This document shows positions 17,027 through 40,587 of a DNA stretch of 48,801 nt, in pieces. The stretch spans positions 1 to 48,801 of the forward strand of contig NZ_QAAD01000025.1 of the NCBI RefSeq assembly GCF_003046625.1, given 5' to 3'. A model generated the notes under the pieces. The model had not been told where the DNA came from, searched no databases, and saw only the letters and a program-made list of their open reading frames with translations. Origin of the DNA: Mangrovibacterium marinum. GTDB taxonomy: Bacteria > Bacteroidota > Bacteroidia > Bacteroidales > Prolixibacteraceae. Position 1 is the stretch's first letter; the number at the start of each line of letters is the position of its first letter. Both the position numbers and the translations under genes were made by a program.

Positions 17027-17118
17027 ATCTTGTTCGTTTATTTTCTTTGTCAATACCCTCGAATCGCGAATCAACCTCAGAATCATTCGCATCGAACGTA
17101 TCAGTTAGTTTATGTCGA

Positions 17119-19542
17119 TTATTTTGATTGAAGGATTAATGTCGATGTCCCCATATTTTCAGCATCGACCATCAACTTGATTTCCCCTGGTTTTTTCGGA
17201 GCTCGCAGAATAGCCATTGCCCTACCCATAAAAAGAGATGGTTCCAGCGAACCAAAGCTTGCCATATCCATTGGTGAAGCATTCCCTGAAGCGATCATAC
17301 GCCCGGCACCATTACAACTGAGTTTAAGCTTGCGGTCGTTGTTCACCACAACATTTCCGTTGCCGTCAACCAATTCAATAAGAACGTAAGCCAGCTGCTG
17401 ACCATCAGCTTCCAGTGTTGTACGGTCTGATGTCAACCGAAGCGCCACGGGTTCGCCGGTGGTTTCCAAAGCGGCTGTCGCCACATGCTGACTATTGTCA
17501 ACAGCAACTGCTTCCAGTTTTCCGGGTTGATAGGATACTTCGAAAGTGGCCTTGTATTTTTCGTCGGTCGCCTGCTCGCCAATAAGCTCGCCATTGAGGT
17601 AAAGCTTTACGTTGGGCTCGCGGGTGTAAACATTCACTTTTACGGTTTTGCCTTCCATGCCGGGAAAGGTCCAGGACAGTGCTTCATCGGGCCAGCCCCA
17701 GAAACTGACTTTGCGAATTTTACCTTCTGCCACAGGCATTTCAACGGCCATCGTAATTTGCGTTTCGCGCCACAAAATATCCCGATAGTACGACTGCGGT
17801 TTCTTGGTGCCGATCAAATCCAAATCGCCGCACCAGCCATTGAACCAAGGCCAACCCATAAACTGGTGCACATTTTCCTGTGGCGATACTTCTACTGTGC
17901 TTCCCAGGCCCGATTCGCCAAGGTAGTCCATCGCTGTCCAAACAAAATCGCCAACCACATAGGGCAGCGCCTCCACTTTGTCCCAGTTTTCAGATGCCTC
18001 GGTGGCGACACTTTCGGTGCCAATAATCACGCGATCCGGGTATTTCCTGTGCTCTTCCTCATAGAATCGCCAGATGTAGTTGTAGCCCAAGACATCCAAA
18101 TGATACATCGCGTTATCCAGCGGCAGCATCGCTGTGCGGTCTTTATTCCAATGTTTGTTGACACCGGCAGTAATCAAACGGGTACTGTCGTATTTTAAAA
18201 TTTCGTTCTTCAGATACCCGGCGGTTTCTTTTCCTTCCTCGGTGATGCGTTCCCGAATTTCGTTCCCGATGCTCCAAAGAATGACGGAGGGATGGTTGCG
18301 GTCGCGTAGCACCAACGCTTTGATATCCCTGGCACTCCATTCTTTGAAATAGTTATGATAATCATCGGGGTTTTTCCCTCCGTTCCACTGGTCAAAAGCT
18401 TCATCTATAACCAACATCCCCAGCCTGTCGCAGGCATTCATAAAACTCTCCGACATCGGGTTGTGAGCCACCCGAACAGCATTATAGCCATTTTCTTTCA
18501 GCAACCTGATTTTCCGTTCCTCGGCATCGTCGAAAGCAGCAGCCCCCAACAATCCGTTATCATGATGGACACAGCCCCCTTTCAGCAAAAGCGGTTGTCC
18601 GTTCAACTCGAAGCCTTTCTCTACCGAAAACTGAATGGTGCGGATGCCAAAAGAAACCGATAGACGATCCATCTCCTTCCCCGATTGGCTCAATATGATC
18701 CGAGCCTCGTACAGATGGGGCGTTTCGGGCGACCAAAGCAATGGGCTGTTCACCTCCAGTTTAAAACTCGCCTCCCGCTTTGGTGCATTTTCGATGCGGA
18801 TGTTTTTTCCAGACTGAATCACTTCACGACCATCAGGAGCCAAAAGACGAACACTTAGATCGTAATTTCCATCTCCATTAATTACGGTTGCAGAAACCGA
18901 AATGTAAGCCTTGTTATCTTCGATGTTTGCTGTGGCGATAAAAGTCCCCCAATCTTCGAGATAAGTTTTAGGTGTTTTCAGCAGCCACAGATGGCGGTAA
19001 ATACCAGAACCTGAATACCAACGGGAGTTCTGGCCTTCATTCACGACTTTCACCGCAATGACATTCGTCTCGCCAACCGGTTTGCAAAACGACGTGATGT
19101 CGAAACGAAAAGAGCTGTAACCGTAAACATTCGTGTAGGCTTTTTTCCCGTTTACCCACACTTCCGATTGGTTATACACGCCTTCAAAATAGAGCTCATG
19201 TCTCTTCTCCGCATCTTCAGGAGCAACCACAAAGGTTTTGCGGTACCAGCCCTCGCCGCCTACGGTTTGACCGGTTGCAAAACCACCAACACTGGCTTTA
19301 CTGAAAGGACCTACAACAGAATCAGGTATTTGCTCCGCAAGCGGTTCAACCGACCAGTCGTGGGGCAAGTCCACCACCCTCCAGTCAGCGTGATCCAGTT
19401 CCGGGTTTTCTCCGTTTTCAATCGCACCTCTGTGAAAATGCCAATCGGCATCGAATAGTATTTTACGGTCCGGACCATCTGCCTGATGATTACAGGCAGA
19501 CAGCACCAGACCAAAAAATAGTAGTAAGTTGAGTAGTCTCAT
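17119..19542 (-). CDS. GH2 beta-galactosidase-like enzyme (lipoprotein)
   Basis: This 807-residue protein has a lipobox ending at Cys17 (GLVLSAC). The GH2 N-terminal jelly-roll contains WRVVDLPHDWSVE and GGEGWYRKTF, followed by an Ig-like domain and the barrel. The acid/base is E428 in ILWSIGNEIRER and the nucleophile is E510 in VIIGTESVATE. The region after about 600 has a DUF4982-like domain (VNVYTREPNVKLYLNGELIG) and an Ig-like C-terminal domain. This layout is common in Bacteroidota beta-galactosidases, so release of beta-galactose from galactan side chains is the likely role. It is a different subtype from the two ~1000-residue GH2 enzymes. It sits between a CE12-type esterase and the GH2 gene ending at 14051. 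Confidence 0.92.
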   Translation of the reverse strand: MRLLNLLLFFGLVLSACNHQADGPDRKILFDADWHFHRGAIENGENPELDHADWRVVDLPHDWSVEPLAEQIPDSVVGPFSKASVGGFATGQTVGGEGWYRKTFVVAPEDAEKRHELYFEGVYNQSEVWVNGKKAYTNVYGYSSFRFDITSFCKPVGETNVIAVKVVNEGQNSRWYSGSGIYRHLWLLKTPKTYLEDWGTFIATANIEDNKAYISVSATVINGDGNYDLSVRLLAPDGREVIQSGKNIRIENAPKREASFKLEVNSPLLWSPETPHLYEARIILSQSGKEMDRLSVSFGIRTIQFSVEKGFELNGQPLLLKGGCVHHDNGLLGAAAFDDAEERKIRLLKENGYNAVRVAHNPMSESFMNACDRLGMLVIDEAFDQWNGGKNPDDYHNYFKEWSARDIKALVLRDRNHPSVILWSIGNEIRERITEEGKETAGYLKNEILKYDSTRLITAGVNKHWNKDRTAMLPLDNAMYHLDVLGYNYIWRFYEEEHRKYPDRVIIGTESVATEASENWDKVEALPYVVGDFVWTAMDYLGESGLGSTVEVSPQENVHQFMGWPWFNGWCGDLDLIGTKKPQSYYRDILWRETQITMAVEMPVAEGKIRKVSFWGWPDEALSWTFPGMEGKTVKVNVYTREPNVKLYLNGELIGEQATDEKYKATFEVSYQPGKLEAVAVDNSQHVATAALETTGEPVALRLTSDRTTLEADGQQLAYVLIELVDGNGNVVVNNDRKLKLSCNGAGRMIASGNASPMDMASFGSLEPSLFMGRAMAILRAPKKPGEIKLMVDAENMGTSTLILQSK

Positions 19543-19575: not shown

Positions 19576-20919
19576 CTAGTTTCCATCGGGTTTTACCAGA
19601 TCAACTGATGGACTCAACGGCCAAAAGAAGTCTTTGAAAGCGTCCGGTTTTCCGGGATCAAAGCCTTTGAAGTCGAGGTATAGGTATTGGGCCAGGCCCG
19701 GATGGTTGTCTTTGATGGAGGCTGCGACACACTTGGCCAGTTCGTAGGCGCCGAATGTACTGAAATGTGTATTGTCGGCCAGGGCCTTTTCCTGGTCTGG
19801 AAAGGTGTTGGCCGAATAATGAACAAACAAATTTTTGGAGTCCTCTTCCCCGTACGCCTCATACAAGGTTTTGGTCATCGCATTTAAGTCGATCAGCTTA
19901 ACATTTTCCTCTTTGGCCAGTTGTCGCATAGCCTCGGGATAGTAGCCCAGGGTGTTAACCAGTTTCCCCGACTCATCGAACTTTCGCCGGTTGGTTGAAG
20001 TCACCAAAACCGGGATGCCACCCTTTTTCCGGGCTTCGTTGATAAAATAGCGGAGTTCATCCTGGTACGTTGTAAATGGTTCGACATGGCATGAACCGGG
20101 TTTCTGATCGTTATGCGCAAACTCGACAAAAAGATAATCACCCGGTTTCATCACACTGATAATTCTCTTCAGCCTGTTTTGGTATTTGAATGAAATCAGC
20201 GTCAAACCGGATTCGGCATGATTGGCCACCACAACTTCCGGTGATAAAAAGCGAGGCAGCATTTGTCCCCATGATGCCCAAGGCTCGTTTCGCTGGTCGG
20301 TTACCGTTGAATTTCCGGCCAAAAAGATGACCGGCAAATCGTTGGCTTCCTCGATGACTATTGACGAAACCGAAGGCCGTGAACCATTGAATTCCAGACA
20401 AAGATTATTGTCCCAGTTTTTCGAACCGATCTCCCGTTCCTTCAACCTGACACGCAAAGTATCGTTAATCTCGGGGCGGCGAACATCCACCACAATCGTC
20501 TTTTCAATGGTTTGTCCTTTCTCAGTCTCGACATTTTCGAGCATTAATCGGCGCGACTCGGCTTTGACCGTTGTTGCCGATTCATGGGCACTGCTACCCA
20601 GGGTAAGCTTAATTTTATACCTTCCCTCGTCCAGATTTATCCGGAAATAAAAGGCCTGATCGGATGTAATGCAGTCGGAAGTGCGGGCATCGCCTTTTCC
20701 GGCTTCAGTTGAATACAGCTTGCCTTCGGGGCAAATCAATCCATATCCTAAACTGTCGGAATACGCAGTCTCGGATGTGACGGCTACAAATTCTTTATGC
20801 ACTTTTCCGTTTCCGAGGTCGAATTTCCATTGCTTGTTAGTTGCTGCGCAAAGCGGGTTTGTCACCTGCATTAAATACAGCACAAACGCCGCTGTTAAAA
20901 TCTTTACTGTCGTGAACAT
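19576..20919 (-). CDS. CE12-like rhamnogalacturonan acetylesterase with N-terminal beta domain
   Basis: This 447-residue SGNH hydrolase has a signal peptide (about 1-26) and an N-terminal beta-sandwich (about 28-190). The latter begins KQWKFDLGNGKVH, which resembles the galactose-binding-like domain seen in longer rhamnogalacturonan acetylesterases. The catalytic part shows the SGNH blocks: FLAGNSTVTDQ (Ser204), NHAESGLTL (Gly), FVEFAHNDQKPG (Asn) and the C-terminal DNTHFSTFGAYELAKCV (Asp and His). CE12 enzymes remove acetyl groups from galacturonate in RG-I, which opens the backbone to PL11. A second, single-domain CE12-like gene lies directly upstream. Confidence 0.92.
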   Translation of the reverse strand: MFTTVKILTAAFVLYLMQVTNPLCAATNKQWKFDLGNGKVHKEFVAVTSETAYSDSLGYGLICPEGKLYSTEAGKGDARTSDCITSDQAFYFRINLDEGRYKIKLTLGSSAHESATTVKAESRRLMLENVETEKGQTIEKTIVVDVRRPEINDTLRVRLKEREIGSKNWDNNLCLEFNGSRPSVSSIVIEEANDLPVIFLAGNSTVTDQRNEPWASWGQMLPRFLSPEVVVANHAESGLTLISFKYQNRLKRIISVMKPGDYLFVEFAHNDQKPGSCHVEPFTTYQDELRYFINEARKKGGIPVLVTSTNRRKFDESGKLVNTLGYYPEAMRQLAKEENVKLIDLNAMTKTLYEAYGEEDSKNLFVHYSANTFPDQEKALADNTHFSTFGAYELAKCVAASIKDNHPGLAQYLYLDFKGFDPGKPDAFKDFFWPLSPSVDLVKPDGN

Positions 20920-20945
20920 ATCTGGTTTATTCTTTGGGTGTTATT

Positions 20946-21668
20946 TTATTTAAAATACTTAGCCAACGGGAGTTGATCCGATTTTACCTGCGCAACAAAA
21001 AGCCCGGCAATTACTTTTGCTCCATTTACATTCAGGTGGGTTGAATCTTGTTTCCGGGTGGTATAATTATAGATTTCCTGGGATGCCAACGGCCCCATCT
21101 TTGTCACCAACTCCCGCGAAAGCGACTCCAGATCGATGTAAGGTGTCTGGGTTTCTGTTGCGATTTCCCGGGCTGCAACGATATAATCACCATGAGTATC
21201 TTTCAGGCTTCCATCGAGACGAAACTGGCGGCGGACAATTGATGAACAAACAATGGGAGTTGCACCTTTCAGCCTTGTTTCGTTGATCATCGTTTTCAGA
21301 TTCTCTTTAAATGTACCAAACGCCACAGTGTGCAATCTCTCATCTGCTTTTTCATCATTGTGCCCAAACTGAATGATTACAAAATCGCCCGTCTCCAGGC
21401 TATCCTGAACGACTTGCCAGCGTCCTTCATCCAGAAAACTTTTGGTGCTCCGCCCACTGGCAGCATGATTGTGAACGGTGGCTCTCCCGGTCACATAAAG
21501 CTTTAAGCCTTCGCCCCATCCCGATTCAGGCGCACGCGACGGCTTTTTCCAGGCCATGGTGGAATCACCCACCAGCCATATATGCGTAGCTCGTTGTTCT
21601 CGGCAAGAAACCAGCAGGAGTATGAACATTAAAAAAGAAAAGCAGCTGATGAATTTTTGTCTAAACAT
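20946..21668 (-). CDS. CE12-like rhamnogalacturonan acetylesterase, single domain (lipoprotein)
   Basis: This 240-residue SGNH hydrolase has a lipoprotein signal (LLLVSC, Cys22). The conserved blocks are IWLVGDSTMAW (Ser36), HNHAASGRSTKSFLDEGRW (Gly), VIIQFGHNDEKA (Asn) and DSTHLNVNGAKVIAGL (Asp/His). Its length fits a minimal CE12 enzyme without accessory domains. It probably deacetylates rhamnogalacturonan fragments at the membrane surface or in the periplasm. The pairing with the two-domain CE12-like gene at 19576-20919 suggests different acetyl positions or cell locations, which is inference. Only 11 bp separate it from the CE6-CE4 gene upstream. Confidence 0.92.
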   Translation of the reverse strand: MFRQKFISCFSFLMFILLLVSCREQRATHIWLVGDSTMAWKKPSRAPESGWGEGLKLYVTGRATVHNHAASGRSTKSFLDEGRWQVVQDSLETGDFVIIQFGHNDEKADERLHTVAFGTFKENLKTMINETRLKGATPIVCSSIVRRQFRLDGSLKDTHGDYIVAAREIATETQTPYIDLESLSRELVTKMGPLASQEIYNYTTRKQDSTHLNVNGAKVIAGLFVAQVKSDQLPLAKYFK

Positions 21669-21679: not shown

Positions 21680-23485
21680 TTATTTCAATTTCACTTGTAT
21701 TTCACCGCCATAGGGATCAAAGTCAAACAAAGCTTTATCGCGGTCAATTTTTACAGCAATCGTTTTGCCGTCTTGCTTTACACGAATGTTTTCAATGCCT
21801 TTTTTATTCACCACCATGGTGAGCGGCTGACAAAACAAACGCTGGTCGAGCGAGAGCGATGGAATAATGTACGTTTTCTTTCCTTGCGCTTTGGTCGTGA
21901 GCTTTATGGAATCGCGTTCGGTTGAATAGGCTGCTACATCGCGGAAAGTGGCCACCCAAATTTGGTCTTCCAACTTTTTAACCTCCGTTAAATGGTTCCA
22001 TAAAATGGTATCCGACTTGAAAATATCATACCCTTCGTTGATGCCATGTGTCATGGTCACCCACCAGGAATGATCCTGAAGAAGACTTCCAATTTTCGCC
22101 TTCAATTTTTCGGGGCTTGCTTTTCCGCCCAACGATTGCTGACTGATCCGGGTTCCCACCCTATTCTCGGAAGCCAGACGAATAGCCATCTCATTTTTCC
22201 GGTTTCCCGCATAACAGTAGGTAACCGGTCTGACGCCCACCCGGGTCTCAATTGCGCTGTCATTTTTTTCGATTTCGATGCGCGCCTCCTCCTCGGTACA
22301 TTTTGTCAGGTTTTTGTGAGCCCAGCCATGGTTGGAGATCTCCTGCCCGGCGTCGGCCATTTCCTTTAGCTGCGCCCACGAAATACGCGGAAGCTTGTTT
22401 ACCAAGCCCTCTTTCTCGGCTTTGTCAATGGTATTCCCGTTTACCCAAAAGGTTGCCTCAAATCCCAGTTCTTTCAGTTTGGGGAATACCAGGGTATAAT
22501 GCTCCAAAGTACCGTCGTCGAAAGTGTAACTGATGGCACAGCTTTTATCATCTTTGTATTTTGCCACGCTGAAATCAGGGCGGTTTCGATACTGAATGCT
22601 GTCCAAAACGGCATACATTTTCTGCCCCAGGTACTCGGCCGACCGGGCATTGAAATGCGTGCGGTCCTTTTGCAACTCCTGTGCCGACATGTCGATCAAC
22701 CAGGCATTCGGATCTTCTTTCGCTTTGCGCTGCTGAGCCTCTTCGATCCCCTGCCGAAAATGACGGTTCGATTTTGGGATCGATCCAAAAACGAAGGGTA
22801 GAGCCGAATAATCCTGCCCCGTTTTCGCTGTCAGATGATTCCGCACGTAAGCGACCACCGCCTTCAGGTTCTCATAATACTGTTCCTCGTACCGGTCGTC
22901 GCTTTCGCCCTGGTGCCACAAAAAAGCATCGATCGTGTAGCCGTTTTCCAGTTTGGACAAGGTGCTGTCAATCGCCGCATCAATGCTTTCAGTGAAAGAC
23001 TTCAAAAGCGATTTTCCACCCTTTTCAAAGGAGCTTGTATTGGCGAGCCACGCCGGATTTGCAGACCAAAAGCGACCTTTCACGGTATCGTTGGGATACT
23101 GAATCGAAGTTCCCCCAACAGCATATTTTATCACATAAAACTCTTCTTGCAACGCTTGCTCCAAGAGATAGTAAGTTACGGCATCGTAAGTCCAAAGCCC
23201 TTCGGTGATCCGGCCCTTGGGGAAGTACGATTCAAAATGTCCGTCGTTGCGGTTCTGCGAAATCTGGCAATACCGGTAAGCTCCTGTTTTAAAATCAACA
23301 GTATCGGTGGCAAATTGCTTGATATAACCGGGTAACTCAGCATTGTTCACTCGCCCGTCGGTATTCGACTGCCCGGCAGTGATAAAAACATGAGCAGGCT
23401 TTTGAGCAAACAGCTTCGCCGGTACAAGCAGGTTAACAACCAATAAAAGCGAAGCAAGAATTATTTTTTTATCCATTTTTTTCAT
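21680..23485 (-). CDS. Two-domain esterase: CE6/SASA acetylesterase fused to CE4 polysaccharide deacetylase
   Basis: About 601 residues. ATGs at 23506, 23485 and 23476 are all possible; the last two place the signal peptide (IILASLLLVVNLLVPAKLFAQ) at the end. Numbering below is from 23506. Residues 38-305 form an SGNH/CE6-type domain with ITAGQSNTDGR (Ser47), LWHQGESDD (198-204) and DRTHFNARSAEYLG (Asp281, His284). Residues about 312-510 form a NodB/CE4 domain with YTFDDGTLEHY (D330, D331), the metal-binding HxxxH in SNHGWAHKNLT (H393, H397) and MTHGINEG. A small beta domain ends the protein. Both families remove acetyl groups, here in one polypeptide. Confidence 0.9.
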   Translation of the reverse strand: MKKMDKKIILASLLLVVNLLVPAKLFAQKPAHVFITAGQSNTDGRVNNAELPGYIKQFATDTVDFKTGAYRYCQISQNRNDGHFESYFPKGRITEGLWTYDAVTYYLLEQALQEEFYVIKYAVGGTSIQYPNDTVKGRFWSANPAWLANTSSFEKGGKSLLKSFTESIDAAIDSTLSKLENGYTIDAFLWHQGESDDRYEEQYYENLKAVVAYVRNHLTAKTGQDYSALPFVFGSIPKSNRHFRQGIEEAQQRKAKEDPNAWLIDMSAQELQKDRTHFNARSAEYLGQKMYAVLDSIQYRNRPDFSVAKYKDDKSCAISYTFDDGTLEHYTLVFPKLKELGFEATFWVNGNTIDKAEKEGLVNKLPRISWAQLKEMADAGQEISNHGWAHKNLTKCTEEEARIEIEKNDSAIETRVGVRPVTYCYAGNRKNEMAIRLASENRVGTRISQQSLGGKASPEKLKAKIGSLLQDHSWWVTMTHGINEGYDIFKSDTILWNHLTEVKKLEDQIWVATFRDVAAYSTERDSIKLTTKAQGKKTYIIPSLSLDQRLFCQPLTMVVNKKGIENIRVKQDGKTIAVKIDRDKALFDFDPYGGEIQVKLK

Positions 23486-23655
23486 TCGGTTTAGCTTACT
23501 GAACATTCACGTTGTTCCAAATTGAATTGTCTATCAAGGAAAGGTTATCATCACGATTCGCGGCACGGATCTGTCGGTTTTAAAAGCTAAAATCATCTGA
23601 TGACCGTTCGTTTTAACATTGAAATAAAGGCCGCGCAACTATTTTGCAGACGTGA

Positions 23656-25773
23656 TCAGTTTTTGATTACAGTGACCGCCTGCATTGTCCCGTCCGAGCA
23701 TATCCGAAGCACATACATTCCGGGAGCAAGTCCTTTTAGGTTGACTTCTATCAACCGATCGGAAGACTCGGTGGATGAGATCTTTGTTCCCATAGCCGAG
23801 TAAAGTTCAACTGTCTTAGGGCTGCTTGCCGACACGGAAATAGTCACAAAATCCTTCGCCGGATTCGGAAATACGACGAGTTCATTTCGAGCCTTGTCAA
23901 TCTCATCCGAACTTGTTGGGACTGAATCGTCAGGGTCGTACTTAATGGTATAAATGTTTGGCACAGGTGCTGGCTCGGGAAAGTAGTAACTTACATTGGC
24001 CGGTTGGTTGTAACCGATATTCTGAGTAGCCACCTGCATGCGGTAGGCCGGGTCATGCATCAGGGTATAGTTCTTTCTTTCCGTCGGGAACCAGGACGAG
24101 AAGATAAAAAGCTGCGTGCTTTCAGCATCGCGGATCACGATCTCTTCCCTCCAATCGCCTACGATATCAGCAACCAAATTCATATCTTTTTTGGTGCTGT
24201 GAATTGTCGATGCCCCGTAGTAATAAGCAGTAAGAATCCGGTTTCCCTTACCATCAGTTATGTTGTCCACGGTATTCCCGTTTCTTAATTCTTTTTGCAC
24301 ATCGCCGTCAAAGTAAAGCGGCTGACAATAGGCGTTGTAGGTTGTTTCCAACAAACGACCTTTACTGTCGTAGTTTCCCATACCAATTGCCGAAATCTCA
24401 GCTCCGGGGTAACGCGAATCGACATCGGCAGCCCAAGCCCGCCCAACATCTCCCGAATCCAGGCCTTCCCAGATAATTTCGCCGGTTGCCGCGTCACGCA
24501 TCGAGATACCATAGGTTGAATTTTCGTGGGGCTGAAAAAATTCCAGCCCGGGGCGATCCGGGATGAGGTCGCCCAGCGCATGTGAATCGCCATGGCCACG
24601 CCCGGTGGTGTACAGGCCGTTGCCATCATGATCGATCGCGCAAGCTCCGTAGATCAATTCATCCGAACCGTCGCCATCCACATCACCGACACAAACGCCG
24701 TGATTTCCCATACCCTCATAAGCTTTATAATCCGGATTATCTTTGGTATCGAAAGTCCAGACCTGAGTTAAATCCTGGCCGTTCCAGGTAAACGCCGCCA
24801 TTGCAATACGGGTATAAATACCTCTTCCGAAAACAAGCATGGGTCCCAGGTCTTTGTGGTAAAGTACGGCTGATTTTATCGAACTGGCGCGATAGCCTCG
24901 GCCATCTCCCCAGGTCGCGTCCTGTTCTCCAATGGGGCCTATCGCCGGGAAATAATCAACTGTTTTCAATTCCTTCCCTGTGGCACCGTCAAAAACAGTC
25001 AGGTAGGCCGGATCAACCTGCAGATGGCCGCTGGATGAGCGAAGCACCAATTGCTGGTCGTTATCTTCCGCCGCAGGCCCTGTGCTTAAAAATGCTCCGG
25101 TTCCATCAACGGTTCCGGGTCCGGTTTTGCAGGCCACCTCTGCTTTACCGTCTTCGTCCAAATCGTAAACCATAAAACCAAGTTTTACAGCAGATGTATT
25201 TGGGCCTGCGTTAATCCGCCACAAACTGTTTCCCTCCAGGTCTATGGCTTCCAGAAATGAGTTCTTCAGCGTTGATGATTCCCATTCGAAAATCAATTCG
25301 TATTGCCCGTCGCCGTCCAGGTCGCCAACACTCATGTCGCCCGCTGAAAAAGTCGCCCCTTCCAATACCGGGGGTGCTGGCAGCGGTATGCGTTTAAACG
25401 CGAGTTTTCCTTTGGAAGCATAATTTTCAAGTGGATCTTGCTGTGCCCACGCCTCAAACTCGCCGGAAATTTCAACAGCTTCGCCATTTACAATTGTTTC
25501 AACCGAATATTTGTCGGTAACCGATCCGCTTGCATCCGTGTAATTACTGGCACCATCAATCGGGTTTTCATTTATTTTCTCACCGTTTCGATATAGGTTG
25601 AAAGCTACATCCGCCGGATCGGTACCCAGCATGCGCCAAGTGAGATAAATTCCGTTTTTAGTTTCCAGGGGAACGATACTCCGGTTTAGGTATTCCATCG
25701 GTCGTTGACTGAAAACCGGGCCGGAGGAACACCCAATCAGCAGTAGTAAAAGTAGTAGTTGTTTAGTTTTCAT
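23656..25773 (-). CDS. PL11 rhamnogalacturonan lyase with T9SS sorting domain
   Basis: This 705-residue protein has a signal peptide with a Cys (LLIGCSSGP). The mature N-terminus RPMEYLNRSIVPLETKNGIYLTWRML and the eight-bladed propeller (about 120-600) with Ca-binding repeats (VGDLDGDGQYELIFEW, YDLDEDGKAEVACKTG, VGDVDGDGSDELIYG) mark PL11. These lyases cut the RG-I backbone between rhamnose and galacturonate and leave unsaturated ends. Residues about 630-705 (ELVVFPNPAKDFVTISV, then GLAPGMYVLRICSDG) form a type A T9SS C-terminal domain. Export across the outer membrane is therefore expected. It is the second gene after the proposed HTCS-controlled promoter. Confidence 0.95.
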   Translation of the reverse strand: MKTKQLLLLLLLIGCSSGPVFSQRPMEYLNRSIVPLETKNGIYLTWRMLGTDPADVAFNLYRNGEKINENPIDGASNYTDASGSVTDKYSVETIVNGEAVEISGEFEAWAQQDPLENYASKGKLAFKRIPLPAPPVLEGATFSAGDMSVGDLDGDGQYELIFEWESSTLKNSFLEAIDLEGNSLWRINAGPNTSAVKLGFMVYDLDEDGKAEVACKTGPGTVDGTGAFLSTGPAAEDNDQQLVLRSSSGHLQVDPAYLTVFDGATGKELKTVDYFPAIGPIGEQDATWGDGRGYRASSIKSAVLYHKDLGPMLVFGRGIYTRIAMAAFTWNGQDLTQVWTFDTKDNPDYKAYEGMGNHGVCVGDVDGDGSDELIYGACAIDHDGNGLYTTGRGHGDSHALGDLIPDRPGLEFFQPHENSTYGISMRDAATGEIIWEGLDSGDVGRAWAADVDSRYPGAEISAIGMGNYDSKGRLLETTYNAYCQPLYFDGDVQKELRNGNTVDNITDGKGNRILTAYYYGASTIHSTKKDMNLVADIVGDWREEIVIRDAESTQLFIFSSWFPTERKNYTLMHDPAYRMQVATQNIGYNQPANVSYYFPEPAPVPNIYTIKYDPDDSVPTSSDEIDKARNELVVFPNPAKDFVTISVSASSPKTVELYSAMGTKISSTESSDRLIEVNLKGLAPGMYVLRICSDGTMQAVTVIKN

Positions 25774-26101: not shown

Positions 26102-29100
26102 CTATTCAGCGACCTTCTGAAAAATCTCCGCTTCAACGATCCGAAGCTGACCTTCGGTGTTCAAACCTTCCGGGTCTTTAAATCCGTCGAGCTCTTTGTT
26201 TCCGCTCAGTTCGATCATATTCTGGAAAGCATCTTCCTCGACGCCAGCACCGGTTAGTTTGATGGTCACGGTTTTACCAACGGTCGGTTTTACCGGGATG
26301 GTGATATACCCGAGGCTACGTTCCGTTTTGCCTGACCATACAGTCTGGTCGCCAACTAAAATATCGATCGGGTACGACTGCCGTCTCCAGCCGGTCATTT
26401 TCAGCGAGATCTCATCAATGCGGGCTTCATCGGCCAGCTCGTAGCTGATCCATCCCGTGGATAATAGTCCGTCGTTGGTCCACTCGCTCAGTTCATTGTC
26501 ATCGTAACTCTGAATTGCTTTATCCTGGTTTGCTCCGGCTTTCACAGCGACAATTTCGAGAGTTTTGCGGGTAACTTTGTACGAAGGTGTCAATGGTGTC
26601 GGCCCTTTCTCCAGGTTGGTCGGTAAACCTGCTGATGGTAACTGGCGACTCAGGCCGTTCTCTACCGCAAAGGGTAGGGTCTCAAAATCAATCTTCGCTG
26701 ATTTCAATCCTTCAGCAGAAGCTTTCACCGTTACTTTACCGGCTTTGGTTGTTGAACGAATAAACGCGCGGTTCACACCACACTCCACCGGGAGCGTTGT
26801 TGAACCAATGTAGTTGTTTGGTCCTTCGGCAATGCCACCCAACCACTCACCGGCTCCGCTCAACTCGAAATCAATTTTATTCAGGGCTGTCGGGCAACGT
26901 TGGCCGTTTTTGTCAACCACTTCAACCTGAACAATAGCCAGGTCAACGCCATCAGCTTTAAAACCAACCGGCGACTGAATGCTTGTCAGCTTGATGGCAT
27001 AAGGTTCACCAGCCGTTTGAATCCGATCTTCAGAAACCACTTCGCCTGCCTTGTTATAAGAAACGGCTTTGATTTCACCGGCTTCCCATTTAATGTCGGG
27101 GAAGGTGTACAGGAATCGGTAAGAATTTTCGCCCAATCCTTTTGATTTTCCGTTGACAAACAATTCAACCTGAGTGCCACCCGAAACCACATAGATTGGT
27201 TTCACCGTGCCCGGTTCGTAGTTCCAGTGCCCGATAATGTGGGTTAGCTGCTTTTCCAGGTCGACCCAACCGGCCCAGATGACTTGCTGGGCGTAGAAAT
27301 TATCTTTCGGAATACGCATTGGGTCAACCTCGCCGCTACGACGGTAATTTTGTGCCCCGCGATAATGGGTGTTGCTGTCCGAGAAGATGATCTTGGCGCC
27401 GCCACTGCTCACCCGTGTTCCGGTTCCGGGGCGTTGTTCCCAGTAATCGAACCAGCGAACCACATTTTCAATCGCGTGCGAATCCTGATTGTGATTGTAA
27501 GCACTTGCATCGGTTACTTTGCTCCCGTTAATGTTGTGGGCATAGGTACCGCCCTCCCCGTTCTTGTGATACGGTGGTGTAAATTCGTCCCAGTATTTGC
27601 GCAGACCTTCGTCGCGCGAGTATTCGGTGGCAAACAAGGGTTTTCCGGCACTCTTATTAATGTAGAGCATTTCGCCACCATATTCGGCAACTTTGCTGTC
27701 CAACATTTCGCGACTGCCAATGGCCCTGCCCCCGTGCGGATCGTAGGTATCGCGAATTTGTTTGAGTTCGGCCATGTGACTTTCGCTGATGCTTTCATTT
27801 CCACCTTCGTAAAACAGGATACTTGGGTTGTTGCGGTTGTAAATGATGGCATCGCGCATTACCTCGCAACGTTGTTCCCAGCGACGGCCGGTCACGTCTT
27901 TTTCCGAGTCACCGGCAGGCATCGCCTGGATCAATCCGACCCGATCGCACGACTCCACATCCTGTTTCCACGGACTGGTGTGCATCCAGCGCACATAGTT
28001 GCCACCCGACTCAATCATCAGTTTATTGCTGTAATCGCTCAACCACGCCGGAACCGACATCCCCACCGAAGGCCACTCGTTGCTGGTGCGTTGGGCGTAT
28101 CCTTTCATCATAAGTACCCGGTCGTTCAGGTAAACCATGCCGTTTTTGAATTCGGTTTTGCGAAAGCCGGTCCGAACAGGCACTTCTTCAACGACTTTCC
28201 CGTCGACAAGCAGTTTCGATTTTACGGTATATAAATAACCATAACCCCAGCTCCAAAATTCCAATCCGCTGATGCTATCCTGCGCTGTGATGGTTTGGAT
28301 TCCGTTGGGTGAAATCATTCGTTGGGTTCCATCAAATTTAGCAACTTGCTTACCATCCAAATCTTCAACCGTAATCTGTAAGCCGGCAGCCACTGCTTTA
28401 CCAGATTCATTTTTCACTTCAGACTGAACATGCACAGTGGCCGACTTTCCTGGAATATCGAAATCAGAGGCATAAACGTAAACCCCGGTTGTTCCCAGGG
28501 TTGAAAACAAAGGCAAGGTTTGATATATTGAACCGGCCGTGTGCAACTTCACATTTTTCGGAATACCGCCATAATTGGCATTGAAATTTTTATCGTTCCA
28601 CTGGTAGCGCTGGTTGTAGAATCGTTCGCGGTAATCCCAGGCATTATCGGTACGAACGGCCACCACATTCTCTTGCGGATAAGGTTTTACCAAATCGGAA
28701 ATATCCAGGCCAATCGCTGTGATACCATTTTCGTGCAGGCCGACTTTGACTCCATTTACATAGAACTCGCCCGCCTGACGGACTCCTTCAAACTCCAAAA
28801 AGATTTTTGTATTCTGATCGTCTTTCGGCAAAACGAAGGTTTTGCGGTACCAGGCAATTCCGGTTGACAGTTCGGTGATGTCTTTCAGGAAGGCTTCATG
28901 CTCATTCCAGGCATAGGGCAGCGTAACGTTTTTCCAACTCGAATCGTCGAAACCAACCTGGTCGGCCCCTTCAGCATCGCCGATAAACAGTTTCCAATCG
29001 GGATTGAAGTTATAGGTGTGGCGGCTTCCCTGCGCCACCGCATTCAGATTAAATACGACTGCCAGAATAAAAAATAAGACTCGGATCCTGTTTGGTCGAC

Positions 29101-29110
29101 TGTGCTCCAT
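26102..29110 (-). CDS. GH2 family glycoside hydrolase, ~1000 residues (first gene of the enzyme operon)
   Basis: The start is ATG at 29110; a GTG two codons earlier (29116) is also possible. Positions below count from the GTG. The signal peptide runs to about residue 29 (NLNAVAQG). The domain order matches the GH2 at 14051-17026: jelly-roll (about 33-205), Ig-like (about 210-315), barrel (about 320-620), beta-sandwiches and a C-terminal discoidin-like domain with SYDDNELSEWTNDGLLSTGW. The acid/base is E441 in YEGGNESISES and the nucleophile is E498 in FATEYSRDEG. The two long GH2 proteins share many blocks, including YDPHGGRAIGSREMLD, so they arose by duplication. The gene lies immediately downstream of the CTTGAC repeat array and -7 element, so it is probably the first and most directly regulated gene. 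Confidence 0.92.
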   Translation of the reverse strand: MEHSRPNRIRVLFFILAVVFNLNAVAQGSRHTYNFNPDWKLFIGDAEGADQVGFDDSSWKNVTLPYAWNEHEAFLKDITELSTGIAWYRKTFVLPKDDQNTKIFLEFEGVRQAGEFYVNGVKVGLHENGITAIGLDISDLVKPYPQENVVAVRTDNAWDYRERFYNQRYQWNDKNFNANYGGIPKNVKLHTAGSIYQTLPLFSTLGTTGVYVYASDFDIPGKSATVHVQSEVKNESGKAVAAGLQITVEDLDGKQVAKFDGTQRMISPNGIQTITAQDSISGLEFWSWGYGYLYTVKSKLLVDGKVVEEVPVRTGFRKTEFKNGMVYLNDRVLMMKGYAQRTSNEWPSVGMSVPAWLSDYSNKLMIESGGNYVRWMHTSPWKQDVESCDRVGLIQAMPAGDSEKDVTGRRWEQRCEVMRDAIIYNRNNPSILFYEGGNESISESHMAELKQIRDTYDPHGGRAIGSREMLDSKVAEYGGEMLYINKSAGKPLFATEYSRDEGLRKYWDEFTPPYHKNGEGGTYAHNINGSKVTDASAYNHNQDSHAIENVVRWFDYWEQRPGTGTRVSSGGAKIIFSDSNTHYRGAQNYRRSGEVDPMRIPKDNFYAQQVIWAGWVDLEKQLTHIIGHWNYEPGTVKPIYVVSGGTQVELFVNGKSKGLGENSYRFLYTFPDIKWEAGEIKAVSYNKAGEVVSEDRIQTAGEPYAIKLTSIQSPVGFKADGVDLAIVQVEVVDKNGQRCPTALNKIDFELSGAGEWLGGIAEGPNNYIGSTTLPVECGVNRAFIRSTTKAGKVTVKASAEGLKSAKIDFETLPFAVENGLSRQLPSAGLPTNLEKGPTPLTPSYKVTRKTLEIVAVKAGANQDKAIQSYDDNELSEWTNDGLLSTGWISYELADEARIDEISLKMTGWRRQSYPIDILVGDQTVWSGKTERSLGYITIPVKPTVGKTVTIKLTGAGVEEDAFQNMIELSGNKELDGFKDPEGLNTEGQLRIVEAEIFQKVAE

Positions 29111-29199
29111 TTTCACGTGTATTAGTTAGATTGACTTTTAAGTTGTGCATTCCGGCTCATTTTTTTGAATGCTGCCACCGGGCAATGCAGAAACATTTT

Positions 29200-29207
29200 C
29201 AAAGCTA
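29200..29207 (-). promoter_or_regulatory. Candidate Bacteroidota -7 promoter element (TAGCTTTG)
   Basis: Read on the minus strand the site is TAGCTTTG, an exact fit to the TAnnTTTG -7 consensus. It lies about 90 bp before the GH2 ATG at 29110. There is no good TTTG -33 box at the normal distance. The CTTGAC array ends about 20 bp upstream, where a -33 box would be, which suits an activator-dependent promoter. A transcript start near 29193 is predicted, which is inference. Confidence 0.6.
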
Positions 29208-29227
29208 ACTGATCAAGCTTAAAGCGG

Positions 29228-29264
29228 CTTGACAATTCTTGACGCCGACTTGACAAAACTTGCC
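29228..29264 (-). promoter_or_regulatory. Four helically phased CTTGAC-like repeats, candidate HTCS operator
   Basis: On the plus strand CTTGAC starts at 29228, 29238 and 29249, and CTTGCC starts at 29259. The spacings are 10, 11 and 10 bp, about one DNA turn each, so all copies face the same side of the helix. AraC-type regulators, including the DNA-binding part of HTCS proteins, often bind such direct repeats beside the promoter. The array lies between the HTCS gene and the first gene of the enzyme operon, directly upstream of a -7 element. Binding by this HTCS is inferred from position. Confidence 0.65.
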
Positions 29265-29291
29265 ACAGCTAAAAAGAGCCGAGTCAAAGCA

Positions 29292-32200
29292 TTAATTTTC
29301 AGCCAAAAACTGCGACGGGCTTTTACCAAATTGTTTGCTGAAGCTGCGTGAAAACGTAGATAATTCGTTGTAACCAACTTCGAAAGCAACGTCAGAAATA
29401 CTCATCTCCTTTTTCAGCAAAAGCTCCTTGGCCCGGTTCATCCGGATGGAGGTGATGAATTGGTGAACTGTTTGACCAGTGAGTGCATCCAGTTTTCGGT
29501 ATAGTTGCCGCTGGCTGAGGTTCAGTTTTTCGGCCAACACATCGGAATTAAATCCTTCGACATTCAGATTTTCCTGAACCAGCCCGATTGCTTTGCGCAA
29601 GAATTCCTGTTCGAGATCAAGCTCCGGTTTTGCGTCGAGCAGCGGTTCACCGGCCTGTTGAAACTGCTGCTGCACTTTCCGGCGATTTTCCACCAGGCTT
29701 TTCACCTGTGCTTTCAGTACCGAACTGTTAAACGGCTTGGTCATGTAGGCATCCGCTCCTTTTTCCAGACCTTCAATTTTAAACTCGTGCGCCTGCCGGG
29801 CAGTCAGTAAGATTACCGGAATGTGGCTGGTTCGGATGTCAGACTTGATTTTTTTACAAAACTCTATGCCATCCATTTCGGGCATCATCAGGTCGCTGAT
29901 GATAATGTCGGGCACCAGGTTCGTCGCTTTCTGTTTGGCTTCTTTCCCATTTTCTGCCGTTTCAATTTTAAACAAGTCCTGTAATTCTTTCTCCAGGTAA
30001 TTCCGAATTTCCGGATTGTCGTCGACAATCAGTAGCAAGGGCTTCTCCGATGTATATTCCTGCCCGGCTTGTTGATTCAAAGGCACTTCCTCAGCAACCG
30101 GGACGACTTGTTCTCCAGCTTGCTGTTCATCCTCCAGCGGCAGCTCTACAATAAACCGGCTACCGTGCCCGGGTTTACTTTCCACCCGGATTGTTCCGCC
30201 CATCAGTTCGACCAACTTTTTGGTCAACGCCAAGCCGATACCGCTGCTACTTCCTTCATAGCTTTTGTTGGCAGCAATGCGAACAAAAGGACTAAAGATC
30301 GTTTGCTGCGCATCGTCCGGGATTCCGATCCCCGAGTCGTTGACTGACAACACCAGCGTCTTACGGCTTCCGACAGACTGGTCCGCGGCCTTGCGCTCTT
30401 GCACATCTACCTGAACAGTCCCTTCATCGGGCGTATATTTGATGGCGTTGCCCAACAGATTGAAAAGAATCTTTTCAAACTTATCCTGGTCGATCCTTCC
30501 CCAAACGGAAGGTTCTGATGCGTGAAAGCTCAGTTCGATTTGCCGGCGACGGGCGCGCATCTGAAACGAACCGGTAATCTGCCGGGCAAATTCAACCCAA
30601 TCGGTATAGGTCGGGTTTAAGGTTTCGTTTTGTGTTTCAATTTTCCGGAAGTCGAGCAATTGATTAATCAGGCTCAATAAACGGGTCGCATTTCGGTGAA
30701 TAATCTGAAGGTAGTCTCGCTGTTTATCCGGTGGCACATTCCCTTCTGAAAGCTTTTCAACCGGATCTAAAATCAGGGAAAGCGGCGTTCGCAATTCGTG
30801 TGAGACATTGGTATAAAATTCAAGTTTTACATTGTCAACGGCCCTTATTTTTTCTTTTTCGACCCGCTCCAGCGCCAGCTGACTGCGAAATTTCTCCTTT
30901 GCCAACAAGTAATAATAGATCGCTATCAAAACCGCCACTATTATCGAAACATAAAATGCCCAGGCAAATGAACTCGCCCAGAAAGGCGGCTTAATTCGAA
31001 TCAGGATCCGCGCTTGCTCATCCGACCAGGCGCCATCCGGATTGGCAGCTTTCACCTTCAACACATAACGCCCTGCAGGTAGGTTCGAGTAAACAGCCTT
31101 TGCATTGGCAGCTCCCGTTTCAATCCAGTTCTTGTCAAAACCCTCCAGCTTGTAACGGTAGCGATTGTTTGCCGGCTCGGCATAACTCAATGCCGCAAAC
31201 GACAAGGCAAAACTTCGTTCCCAAAACGAGAAAGTCAGCTCGTTGGTATGGGCTAACGCCTGTTCGAGCAATACCCGCCCCCTCCATTCTTCCCCAATCG
31301 CCACTTCCGAGTTCAAGACTTCCAGTGCCGTGAAACGCACAACCGGTGCAATCGGATTCAATTTTATCCCGGAAGGCTGAAAAGACAACCAACCACTTTG
31401 TGCTCCAAAATAAATCTGTCCGGTTTCCGGATTTTTATAGCAACTGTTATCCAGAAAACTAATTCGTTCTTTATCGACCAAAGGATCGAAATGCCTCAGC
31501 TCATCCGATTTCTTGTTATACCGGGCCAAACCGGCTTTGTGGCTAATCCAGATATTTCCGTTAGCGTCGCCCGTGACAGCCGAGATGTAGCCATCGGACA
31601 ATCCACTGTTTTCAGGCATTACATGAACCTCACCCTCGGGATCAAGGTAACATAAGCCATTTGACGTTCCTGCCCAAATAAGCCCTTCGTCGTCTTCGTA
31701 GAGGCAATAAACCCGGTTGCCGGGCAGCCCCCGAACGGAGTCATGCTTGTTGCGGTAGGAAATAATTTCTTCTCCCAAGCGCTTTCCCGCTCCTTGCTTC
31801 AGACAAATTAGCCCACTCCCTTCTGTCGCCAGCCAAAGGTTTGCCTGTCGGTCAAACAACATCGCCATAACGCTGCGCTCACCAATGTGGGATGATAGGT
31901 CGAACCATTCAAACTGATCTTTTTCGGGGATATAGCGCGCAATGCTTCCGTAGAGACCTGCCCAGAGTTGCCCTTTGTCATCGCAACAAAAAGTAAAAAC
32001 CGAATTAGGCATATCGGCATTAAACAGCTTTCTGGGACTGTACGATTTCAGTTGATTCCGTTGAGGGCTGTAGCGATGCATTCCCCGGACACTTCCAAAC
32101 CAGATATTCCCCTTGCCATCGGGAACAATTGCCCGGGTGCGAAGCAGATTGTCACCTCCCGGAACCACATCGGCCATATCAACAGATCTACCGGTTTGCT

Positions 32201-32975
32201 TATCCAGCTTTCTTACATTTCTATAATTTCCAGCCAACCAAAGGTACTTATCGTCCTCATAAATAGCCCGGATCGCGTTATTTTTCCATATTCCCTGTTC
32301 TTCAAACCGGGTGTATTGAAAATTGAAGGGTTTGCGATTGAGATCGGCTTTGTTGATGTCTCCGTTGGCCATGCCCACCCACAATATTTGCTGATCATCC
32401 AGGAAAATCCACGAAGCGAAATCGTCAGATAGCGCCCCGGGCTTGCTCAAGTCGTTTACAACTTGCTTTTTCAGCCCGGTTTGAAGATTATATTGCCAAA
32501 GGACTCCATCGTCCAGCTCCCATTGCATATTCGCATAGGTAACCTGCTTCCCTTTAGCGATTGACTCAAGCGCCTTTTCATACAAATTAGAATAGTTAGC
32601 GGTGGCTGCCTTTTCAATCTTCTGAAAGCTTTCCTGAAGAGGATCGTAGCGCCGTAATTCCCTGTCAAAACCCATCACAATCAGCTCGCCCGCATCATCC
32701 GGAAAGATGGTTCGGATTCGGTTTGAAGAAATTCCATTTTCGTCCGATTCCGTATTTCGAAAGATTTTGAACTGTATACCATCGAAGCGAAACAATCCGT
32801 CCCAACTACCAAACCAGACGAACCCGTCTTTGTCCTTCACAATTCCCATTATTGCAGTATGTGGCGTATCCGGCCCGGCTACAACTTTCTCAAAGTACAG
32901 ATTCCCGGGCTGCTGGCTGAAGCCAAATAACGATTGCATTAGCAAAAAGGACAGCAGGAGATATTGGTATTTCAT
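29292..32975 (-). CDS. Hybrid two-component system regulator (HTCS)
   Basis: This 1227-residue one-protein sensor and activator has a signal peptide (about 1-20) and a periplasmic propeller of Reg_prop repeats (about 35-540, e.g. DGFVWFGSWDGLFRFDG and GLIWAGTSNGLCYLDP). A Y_Y_Y domain (about 580-660; YRYKLEGFDKNW) and one membrane segment (about 671-691) follow. The cytoplasmic part has HisKA with His726 in NVSHELRTPLSLIL and a HATPase (N-box LLGNAIKYTPD, G-box SGIGIPDDA). Next come a receiver domain (about 977-1095) with the D985/D986 pair, phosphoacceptor D1028 in DLMMPEMDG and K1080, and a C-terminal AraC-type HTH (about 1125-1225). Such proteins sense an oligosaccharide and switch on their locus. 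All key residues are present. The adjacent PL11/CE12 genes point to an RG-I fragment as the signal. Confidence 0.96.
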   Translation of the reverse strand: MKYQYLLLSFLLMQSLFGFSQQPGNLYFEKVVAGPDTPHTAIMGIVKDKDGFVWFGSWDGLFRFDGIQFKIFRNTESDENGISSNRIRTIFPDDAGELIVMGFDRELRRYDPLQESFQKIEKAATANYSNLYEKALESIAKGKQVTYANMQWELDDGVLWQYNLQTGLKKQVVNDLSKPGALSDDFASWIFLDDQQILWVGMANGDINKADLNRKPFNFQYTRFEEQGIWKNNAIRAIYEDDKYLWLAGNYRNVRKLDKQTGRSVDMADVVPGGDNLLRTRAIVPDGKGNIWFGSVRGMHRYSPQRNQLKSYSPRKLFNADMPNSVFTFCCDDKGQLWAGLYGSIARYIPEKDQFEWFDLSSHIGERSVMAMLFDRQANLWLATEGSGLICLKQGAGKRLGEEIISYRNKHDSVRGLPGNRVYCLYEDDEGLIWAGTSNGLCYLDPEGEVHVMPENSGLSDGYISAVTGDANGNIWISHKAGLARYNKKSDELRHFDPLVDKERISFLDNSCYKNPETGQIYFGAQSGWLSFQPSGIKLNPIAPVVRFTALEVLNSEVAIGEEWRGRVLLEQALAHTNELTFSFWERSFALSFAALSYAEPANNRYRYKLEGFDKNWIETGAANAKAVYSNLPAGRYVLKVKAANPDGAWSDEQARILIRIKPPFWASSFAWAFYVSIIVAVLIAIYYYLLAKEKFRSQLALERVEKEKIRAVDNVKLEFYTNVSHELRTPLSLILDPVEKLSEGNVPPDKQRDYLQIIHRNATRLLSLINQLLDFRKIETQNETLNPTYTDWVEFARQITGSFQMRARRRQIELSFHASEPSVWGRIDQDKFEKILFNLLGNAIKYTPDEGTVQVDVQERKAADQSVGSRKTLVLSVNDSGIGIPDDAQQTIFSPFVRIAANKSYEGSSSGIGLALTKKLVELMGGTIRVESKPGHGSRFIVELPLEDEQQAGEQVVPVAEEVPLNQQAGQEYTSEKPLLLIVDDNPEIRNYLEKELQDLFKIETAENGKEAKQKATNLVPDIIISDLMMPEMDGIEFCKKIKSDIRTSHIPVILLTARQAHEFKIEGLEKGADAYMTKPFNSSVLKAQVKSLVENRRKVQQQFQQAGEPLLDAKPELDLEQEFLRKAIGLVQENLNVEGFNSDVLAEKLNLSQRQLYRKLDALTGQTVHQFITSIRMNRAKELLLKKEMSISDVAFEVGYNELSTFSRSFSKQFGKSPSQFLAEN

Positions 32976-35639: not shown

Positions 35640-36800
35640 CTAGTCTCCCAGTATTTCTTCCAACTTTTTGCCTAGATCTTCGCCCCGAACATTGTCGGCG
35701 ATCAGGCGGCCTTCGTTATCAATCAGGTAAGTTGTAGGAACGGCTTTCACTTTGTAGAGCGATGATACTTCCAGGTCGTTGAAGTTTGGCCACTTCAGGC
35801 CTTCTTCTTCCAGGGCTTTGGCCCAGGCTTTCGGGTCTTTATCGATTGAAAAGCCGATCACCTCAAATCCTTTGGAAGCATATTTTTCATAGTTCGCTTT
35901 TACATTTGGAAGTTCTTTACGGCAAGGCACACACCACGACGCCCAGAAGTCAATCAAAATCACTTTTTTGTCCTTAATCAACTCATTTAAGGTGCATTGC
36001 TTTCCATTCTTATCGGTTGTGGTGAAATCCGGTACTTTTTCGCCTGTCCGGTTGGCAGGATACAAGTCCTCGGCCACCATTTTACCGTAATAGCTATTTT
36101 TTGCCTCTTCCGACATGGCGTCGAACGTCGGGCGGACTTCGGAAGTAAAGTACGAGTACAGGTTCAGCATCATCAACGGCCCCCAGAAGGTTTCTTTGTT
36201 ATCCTCGAACACCTGGTTGTAACGTTTCTCCACTTCAGCGAAAAAAGCATTCTCCGCCTGCACATAGTCCTGATAAGCAGGCAGGTTTTTGATGGAATCC
36301 ATCCGGGCCTGGTCCTTCTCACCCCGCGCTTTGCCGTACATGGCCTGAACGTCGGCATAACGTTCGTTTTTCTCTTCGAATAATTTATTCAGCCCTTCCC
36401 TTACGGCCATTTGGCTTTTAAAGTAGTTGTGGCTTTCAGATCCTGTCACCTCCATTTTGTCGAAGGCCTGAGTTGTTGCGCCATCGTTCCCGGGGCGCTT
36501 TTTTACCGTACCTTTTACGCTGATGGAGTTGTTTTCAACCATCAACTGGAAATAGTCTTCCTTGTCTCCCAAAACCAGAAAGTACAAGCGTGGCTCCGGA
36601 ACCGTTCCTGCGAAATGAAATTTTCCGCCTTCGATCGTCGTTTCAGCTTCGGGTTTTACGTCGTATTTGGCAAAAGGCACCAGGGCAATTTTTGTCCCGT
36701 CGGCGGCTTCGCTTAACTCGCCTTCAATCTTGTAGCCACGGCTACATCCCAGGCTGCAAATGATGAGCAAGCCTAAAAATCCTGTTAATAATTTCTTCAT
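35640..36800 (-). CDS. TlpA-type thioredoxin lipoprotein with DUF4369 domain
   Basis: This 386-residue protein has a lipobox at Cys19 (CSLGC). Residues about 22-115 form a DUF4369 beta-sandwich (YKIEGELSEAADGTKIAL), about 125-245 are mainly helical, and about 252-386 form a thioredoxin/AhpC-TSA domain with WASWCVPCRKELP (Cys290, Cys293) and a cis-Pro near VKAVPTTYLID. TlpA-like proteins reduce or exchange disulfides outside the cytoplasm. It follows the PKD-like lipoprotein by 24 bp. Placed in a SusC/D operon with a protease and a serine/cysteine lyase, it may reduce disulfides in imported proteins or peptides, which is inference. Confidence 0.93.
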   Translation of the reverse strand: MKKLLTGFLGLLIICSLGCSRGYKIEGELSEAADGTKIALVPFAKYDVKPEAETTIEGGKFHFAGTVPEPRLYFLVLGDKEDYFQLMVENNSISVKGTVKKRPGNDGATTQAFDKMEVTGSESHNYFKSQMAVREGLNKLFEEKNERYADVQAMYGKARGEKDQARMDSIKNLPAYQDYVQAENAFFAEVEKRYNQVFEDNKETFWGPLMMLNLYSYFTSEVRPTFDAMSEEAKNSYYGKMVAEDLYPANRTGEKVPDFTTTDKNGKQCTLNELIKDKKVILIDFWASWCVPCRKELPNVKANYEKYASKGFEVIGFSIDKDPKAWAKALEEEGLKWPNFNDLEVSSLYKVKAVPTTYLIDNEGRLIADNVRGEDLGKKLEEILGD

Positions 36801-36824
36801 TGTAATCGTCTATAAATTAAAAAA

Positions 36825-38378: not shown

Positions 38379-38404
38379 AATTCGAATAATTTTGAAAGTA
38401 GCTG

Positions 38405-39109: not shown

Positions 39110-39126
39110 TGTTCCTGGTTTTAACA

Positions 39127-40575: not shown

Positions 40576-40587
40576 AATCGTTCCGGA

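Follow-up and report, generated by a model that had tools for sequence, protein, structure and literature searches.

The nearest literature on HTCS operators includes a prediction published in 2013 (PMC3878776) and a domain study of 2024. For 16 HTCS motifs of B. theta, Ravcheev et al. (2013) proposed a direct-repeat structure in which tandem sites are on average 21 bp apart and a dimer is bound on one face of the DNA (PMC3878776). When the HTCS BT1754 was studied by ChIP-seq, no peak was stronger than the one at the 3' region of the BT1754 gene itself (PMC3404733). EMSA with receiver plus DNA-binding fragments of two HTCSs on PUL promoters, together with phosphorylation control, has been reported, and the S/CHIP motif of the HTCS receiver was tied in the same report to an inhibition that is relieved by phosphorylation (PMC11253607). 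Bacteroidota are described as being without a classical sigma-70 (PMC7366714); their sigma-ABfr promoters carry a -7 box that spans -12 to -5 (PMC9723704) and an element placed around -33 (PMC7366714).

Here we analyzed a stretch of 48,801 nucleotides from Mangrovibacterium marinum (NZ_QAAD01000025.1, forward strand, positions 1 to 48,801; hereafter the window), in which a sequence-only reading had pointed to a phased array of CTTGAC hexamers as the likely HTCS switch of an enzyme operon. The genes concerned and the array are as follows.

29292..32975, minus strand: HTCS gene, 1227 aa, with Reg_prop, Y_Y_Y, HisKA, HATPase_c, Response_reg and HTH_18 (Pfam)
29228..29264, minus strand: four-box array GGCAAG TTTT GTCAAG TCGGC GTCAAG AATT GTCAAG, candidate HTCS operator (sequence; single in its genome)
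26102..29110, minus strand: first operon gene, a GH2 family glycoside hydrolase, ATG at 29110 (domain search)
23656..25773, minus strand: PL11 rhamnogalacturonan lyase (domain search)
21680..23506, minus strand: SASA esterase / polysaccharide deacetylase domains (domain search)
19576..21668, minus strand: two GDSL-like esterase genes (domain search)
14051..19542, minus strand: two more GH2 genes (domain search)

The array resembles the predicted B. theta operators in that two direct-repeat sites, spaced by about 21 bp, precede polysaccharide utilisation genes with an HTCS in the locus, and HTCS_Rgu-1 and HTCS_Rgu-2 have a substrate kind, rhamnogalacturonan, in common with the window (PMC3878776). 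Unlike those operators, the half-sites within a unit of the window are alike and form a four-step 10-11-10 ladder, and the genes behind its promoter include no SusC/SusD pair (PMC3878776). The likeness to the motifs of that report is one of geometry and context, the core TGTCAAG standing outside the comparison with their logos (PMC3878776). The binding region of BT1754 is placed relative to its own HTCS gene as the array is, but it belongs to a fructan locus, and the likeness is one of position (PMC3404733). The promoter has the exact TAnnTTTG of sigma-ABfr promoters, with the array where their TTTG at -33 belongs (PMC7366714, PMC9723704). XylRA and E. coli XylR-type AraC sites also offer a direct-repeat site to an AraC-type domain, whereas XylRA, as described in that report, has a LacI-like ligand domain, an AT-rich motif in Vibrio and no two-component system (PMC12125979).

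The HTCS is complete in one chain, with propeller, HisKA, HATPase, receiver and AraC-type HTH all above the Pfam cut-offs. Its translation carries a SHIP motif in the receiver domain (TSHIPVILLTA), and the structure nearest in sequence to its DNA-binding domain is 12aw, whose chain is named hybrid two-component system protein. Elsewhere in the window, genes for thioredoxin-like, PKD-like, DUF4843, SusD-like, TonB-dependent receptor and FecR proteins lie on the minus strand at 35640-45180, a cluster that is probably under sigma/anti-sigma control and unrelated to the HTCS. The GH97, carboxylesterase, GH43, esterase and GH115 genes at 478-11406 point to a xylan-type set, which lies downstream of the genes of rhamnogalacturonan type.

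The four-box array and its promoter

The HTCS gene and the GH2 gene, both on the minus strand, are parted by a gap of 181 bp (29111-29291), and the array sits in it between the stop side of the HTCS gene and the GH2 ATG, so that it precedes the first GH2 gene as had been claimed. On the plus strand the boxes are CTTGAC at 29228, 29238 and 29249 and CTTGCC at 29259, and the coordinates of all four bear out exactly the hexamers and the start-to-start spacing of 10-11-10 given by the sequence-only reading. On the operon strand (minus) they read GGCAAG-4-GTCAAG-5-GTCAAG-4-GTCAAG from 29264 to 29228.

Neither the CTTGAC hexamer (37 observed versus 45.75 expected) nor TAnnTTTG (39 versus 35.55) is over-represented in the window; the oddity of the array lies in its arrangement. 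When an array was defined as any four hexamers at 10/11 spacing with agreement at 23/24 positions, that of the window was the only 10-11-10 case within 1.21 Mb of loci, the rest being 11-11-11; it was met again in L205, which is a second copy of the same place. No second array of at least 17/24 was found in any intergenic stretch of the window. Three exact GTCAAG at 4/5 spacing occur at one place in the organism's own 4.6-Mb genome, and so does the four-box array when up to 3 mismatches are allowed. Strict 11-11-11 four-box arrays were seen in L195 (AGTAAG, 5782), L203 (ATCTAT, 4803) and L204 (TACCCT, 5702), each within 2.1 kb of HTCS genes of other genomes.

The stronger period of the array is 21 bp: it contains 17-nt direct copies, 82% identical, at a spacing of 21, and its two 21-bp units match at 15/21 positions in direct reading. 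An AraC-type domain has two helix-turn-helix motifs, which occupy two major grooves about 10.5 bp apart, so that four boxes would correspond to two monomers arranged head to tail. Two tandem 21-bp units describe the array better than four separate boxes do, and we infer one 21-bp site of two half-sites per regulator monomer, bound as a dimer. A multimeric AraC-type domain had been suggested for these one-turn repeats; the AraC-type HTH_18 is indeed present, while two 21-bp sites per dimer would be preferred over four subunits. The elements of the promoter are as follows.

29244..29264, minus strand: distal 21-bp unit, putatively for the first regulator monomer (17-nt repeat at spacing 21; lag-21 peak near HTCS genes)
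29223..29243, minus strand: proximal 21-bp unit, putatively for the second monomer, its second box (29233-29228) being -38 to -33
29200..29207, minus strand: TAGCTTTG, -7 element of sigma-ABfr type, matching the TAnnTTTG consensus (PMC7366714, PMC9723704)
29195, minus strand: predicted start of transcription (+1), provided that the -7 box is -12 to -5
29111..29195, minus strand: predicted 85-nt leader, with no significant RNA fold (z 0.41)

The exact TAnnTTTG had been placed about 20 bp from the array and lies exactly 20 nt after its last box; from TAGCTTTG to the GH2 ATG there are 89 nt. The predicted start at 29195 is two bases off the earlier prediction of 29193. By this placement of the -7 box, the array reaches from -69 to -33, of which the last box takes up -38 to -33. 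While TAnnTTTG is present at -7, a TTTG at about -33 is absent, the stretch from -40 to -25 reading TTGTCAAGCCGCTTTA. The earlier claim that the array covers the position of a missing -33 box therefore holds; an activator at the array would do the job of the -33 element, and replacement of that box fits the sequence. A sigma-70 reading of TTGACA on the plus strand was rejected, as no promoter-like site was found there.

Direct repeats beside HTCS genes at large

A wider comparison covered 85 HTCS genes, namely that of the window, nine more from its own genome and those of relatives, with 382 intergenic regions within 6 kb. The first 50 of 80 loci (L032-L081) from a peptide-pattern scan of genome contigs were used, 85 of 100 loci yielded a usable HTCS gene, and 17 added loci gave 16 more. 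Identical 9-mers were found at lag 21 in 17/382 regions, compared with 0-6 at each other lag from 9 to 60, and the excess in these regions persists with mismatches allowed. Regions more than 6 kb from an HTCS also peak at lag 21 (17/81 at 12/18 matches; other lags 0-10) and thus are not a clean negative control, perhaps due to their location in the same loci. Because some of the lag hits in the first counts were simple repeats, low-complexity stretches were excluded from the later ones (the -7-box, 52-gap and 13-locus counts), while the first 9-mer and mismatch counts include some simple repeats.

A co-directional gap of 60-900 bp lies directly 3' of 52 of the 101 HTCS genes; those left out were not co-directional (33), had short gaps (11), stood at a contig end (3) or either had gaps over 900 bp or were duplicates (2). 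Repeats with 12/15 matches or better were found in these 52 gaps at lag 21 in nine, the window among them, and at lag 20 in four; each remaining lag between 15 and 45 gave 0-2. A lag-21 repeat with TAnnTTTG 8-36 nt downstream was present in nine regions, including the window, versus five for lag 22, three for lag 23 and 0-1 for each remaining control lag between 16 and 33. A further HTCS gene of the organism is preceded by several imperfect 21-22 bp CCCCGAGCAGTTTGA-like copies (L158, 6871-7000, C6), a run that is an HTCS site in multiple copies or else a minisatellite.

The array as a widespread exact motif was a rejected candidate: three GTCAAG at 4/5 spacing gave 3 matches versus 3 for the control in 393 genomes of the order and are not enriched. 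Besides the window, the matches are a minisatellite of GGCAAG/GTCAAG in G300 and one place in G500, and no HTCS gene was recognised around these two. The four-box pattern at 17/24 or better was found at 20 places in 2.22 Mb of loci, among which only the window (in two registers) and G356/G436 (17/24) fall in HTCS 3' gaps; with so few there, the score alone is weak evidence. The pattern TGWCAA-5-YGWCA-5-TGWCAA gave 18 matches in the 393 genomes versus 0 for the reversed control, comprising eight ATGACAAT-like simple repeats, five inside predicted genes, four beside an HTCS (window, G356, G436 and G203) and one elsewhere. The G203 match lies in a convergent gap and was left out of the support; the window, G356 and G436 are built purely of GTCA boxes. 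Ladders of ATGACAAT with a 10-11 bp step occur at G000:C1:95281-95307 and G000:C11:148988-149014 (L283, L291), with similar ones in G191, G296, G316, G328 and G457; they all look like simple repeats. In the organism's own genome, no further targets, such as a second site for a SusC/SusD operon, were found above control (5 places with that of the window, control 5).

Distant relatives and competing explanations

A search of 140 genomes of the family and 393 of the order gave no orthologue of the HTCS, the best full-length identity there being 38%; in the contig scan by peptide patterns, the best among the matches listed was 34% over the full length and 39% over a segment. Twelve loci (one partial) with short HTCSs, 33-38% identical and 1207-1277 aa where complete, make up with the window a 13-locus set, from which L271 and L272, with long HTCSs, were left out; G436 is in it twice (L268 and L274, the latter a partial gene), and the divergent gaps of L165 and L266 were picked after inspection. 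An 11/14 repeat at lag 20 or 21 in the adjacent promoter was found in 7/12 relatives (8/13 with the window), which are L032, L165, L235, L266, L267, L269 and L274. At control lags the 13 loci gave three at lag 19, one each at lags 14 and 45 and none at the rest of 14-45. Weaker 10/14 repeats at lag 20 are present in L236 and L273, and none passing at lag 20/21 in L166, L268 and L270. An exact TAnnTTTG follows the repeat by about 22-25 nt in L032, L165, L235, L236 and L273, and by 21 nt in the window; it lies somewhere in the gap in L268 and is absent just after the repeat in L266, L267, L269 and L274.

Gene neighbourhoods similar to that of the window were found in several of these genomes. 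In G729 and G548 the HTCS is followed by a GH2 61% identical to that of the window, with a lag-20 repeat and TAAATTTG downstream in both; in G212 it is followed by a GH2 65% identical to the third GH2 of the window, and in G427 it is divergent from a PL11 (54% identical).

The closest counterpart of the array is TTTACA-4-GTCAAG-5-GTCACA-4-GTCAAA in the HTCS 3' gap of G356 and G436, spaced 10-11-10 like that of the window. From this array there are 21 nt to a conserved TTAATTTG, one base off the -7 consensus, and an exact TAnnTTTG after the array is absent in both genomes; when the two are aligned, conservation is seen in the array and in the TTAATTTG region but not in the intervening stretch. 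TGTCAA-N15-TGTCAA was found at three places in 4.44 million strand-bases (126 loci), in the window, G356 and G436, all in HTCS 3' gaps, and TGWCAA at lag 20 or 21 at seven places, five of them in promoter gaps (adding G427 and G458). Since G356 and G436 are of one genus, in another family, they count as one independent case, and the core TGTCAA was chosen after viewing the sequences, so that this is good support, not proof.

The HTCS of G002, a genome of the same genus, is 37% identical (48-51% in the DNA-binding domain) and adjoins a PL11, and no GTCAAG array or lag-21 repeat was found in the gap between them. By eye, this gap (L166, 5234-5405) shows a TCTTGAT repeat 42 bp apart, which is two 21-bp steps. 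The array and a lag-21 repeat are both absent from the G162 gap. The hexamers had been expected to recur at related loci, and the outcome is mixed: G356 and G436 have them, whereas G002 and G162 do not, the loci compared being those of distant relatives, not orthologues. Box sequence does not track the similarity of the DNA-binding domain, as that of G356/G436 is 32-33% identical to the window's and yet the core is common.

The enzyme genes offer a second comparison. GH2 orthologues are 76-82% identical in G001, G002, G003, G139, G162 and G037 and 68% in G164 (140 genomes of the family). Upstream DNA of six of the seven was compared, with 1500 bp for each except G162 (692 bp); in G002 the contig ends and leaves none. 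These six (68-82%) have no array upstream (best 13-14/24) and no HTCS-like stretch (blastp, E up to 1e-3), and this joint absence supports the view that array and HTCS form a pair. Another, more distant GH2 of G162 (56%; L121) follows, after a short gap, an AraC-type regulator fragment 24% identical to the C-terminal part of the HTCS, and the array is absent before it (15/24).

Could the array serve a different regulator, be it another AraC-type protein, another HTCS or one of LytTR type, with the neighbouring HTCS as a bystander? Direct repeats near 21 bp are not confined to HTCSs, and LytTR-type response regulators use direct repeats of similar period. The boxes do not follow the DNA-binding domain of the window's HTCS, and the same-genus G002 is without them. 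Against this, lag-20/21 repeats recur beside homologous HTCS genes, the array is missing upstream of 6/6 GH2 orthologues that are without an HTCS in the upstream DNA compared, and its single site in the genome is as expected of a local regulator, so that we regard a foreign regulator as unlikely.

If the array is an HTCS operator, it might mainly repress or serve autoregulation instead of activating in the class II manner. Some HTCSs are reported to repress, namely BT0366 at distal PULs (PMC3404733) and BT2391 (PMC11253607), and the array overlaps the region of the polymerase. However, it stops at -33 and leaves the -7 box free, the absence of TTTG at -33 suits an activator-dependent promoter, and the SHIP motif of the receiver is of the kind linked to an inhibition lifted by phosphorylation (PMC11253607); a mainly repressing site is thus very unlikely.

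A chance or mutational short tandem repeat devoid of a regulatory role is more improbable still. Simple repeats of 10 or 11 bp do exist in Bacteroidales DNA, as in the 11-11-11 arrays and TGACAA ladders, but such an array arose in 0/20,000 first-order resamples of the 181-bp gap, the differing spacers and the 10-11-10 spacing are unlike a slippage array, and some relatives share the placement with respect to the -7 box and the HTCS stop. An RNA-level element (terminator, attenuator or riboswitch) with read-through from the HTCS gene is very improbable: same-strand genes 181 bp apart would allow it and 29200-29291 folds somewhat better than shuffles (z -1.24), but no terminator-like site was found, nothing in the window matches Rfam at gathering scores, and the fold of the leader is not significant.

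Proposed mechanism and reach

In our judgment the array is very probably the operator of the neighbouring HTCS, which would bind it head to tail at about -69 to -33 and activate the enzyme operon. The earlier proposal of an HTCS switch for that operon is, on sequence grounds, the best reading, given the complete HTCS, the 21-bp geometry and the same-place sites in relatives. Like the predicted HTCS operators, the array consists of two direct-repeat sites spaced by about 21 bp and precedes a PUL operon beside an HTCS.

The periplasmic propeller sensor would bind a ligand, probably a rhamnogalacturonan-I fragment, since PL11, GH2 and esterase genes adjoin. The fused kinase would then phosphorylate the receiver, and the AraC-type DNA-binding domain would be set free. 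Two such domains would line up head to tail along one face of the DNA and would each take one 21-bp unit, in which the two helix-turn-helix motifs would enter successive major grooves, that is, two boxes. The complex would fill -69 to -33 and touch the sigma-ABfr RNA polymerase instead of a -33 element, and transcription of the GH2-PL11 operon, whose predicted extent follows the gene list above, would start by way of TAGCTTTG as the -7 box.

A trait unusual for an HTCS site is that all four half-sites are nearly alike. Both helix-turn-helix motifs might read GTCAAG, which would make the operator a near-uniform ladder with a 10.5-bp step on which the dimer docks in more than one register, tuning output; we consider this doubtful. 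If it were true, the registers would be one helical turn apart with just one abutting the polymerase, and output could depend on the register of occupancy and not on occupancy alone. In other HTCS sites lag 10 shows only a weak rise (z 2.2, window excluded), so that uniform ladders would be a special variant; a general 10-bp half-site periodicity across HTCS sites was tried, and the signal was weak. The divergent PL11 promoter of G427, with TGACAA/TGTCTC/TGACAA/TGTCAA at 11-10-11 (by eye), may be a second ladder case.

The design was already proposed for Bacteroides, and the site is ordinary for HTCS operators. The window adds a short operator candidate for one HTCS, in a genome that is not among the 11 Bacteroides genomes on which the prediction of 2013 was made. 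A simple comparison, looking for lag 20-21 repeats beside HTCS genes that are often then followed by TAnnTTTG, detects the rule in other families and orders, and it could aid the pairing of orphan HTCS genes with their operators.
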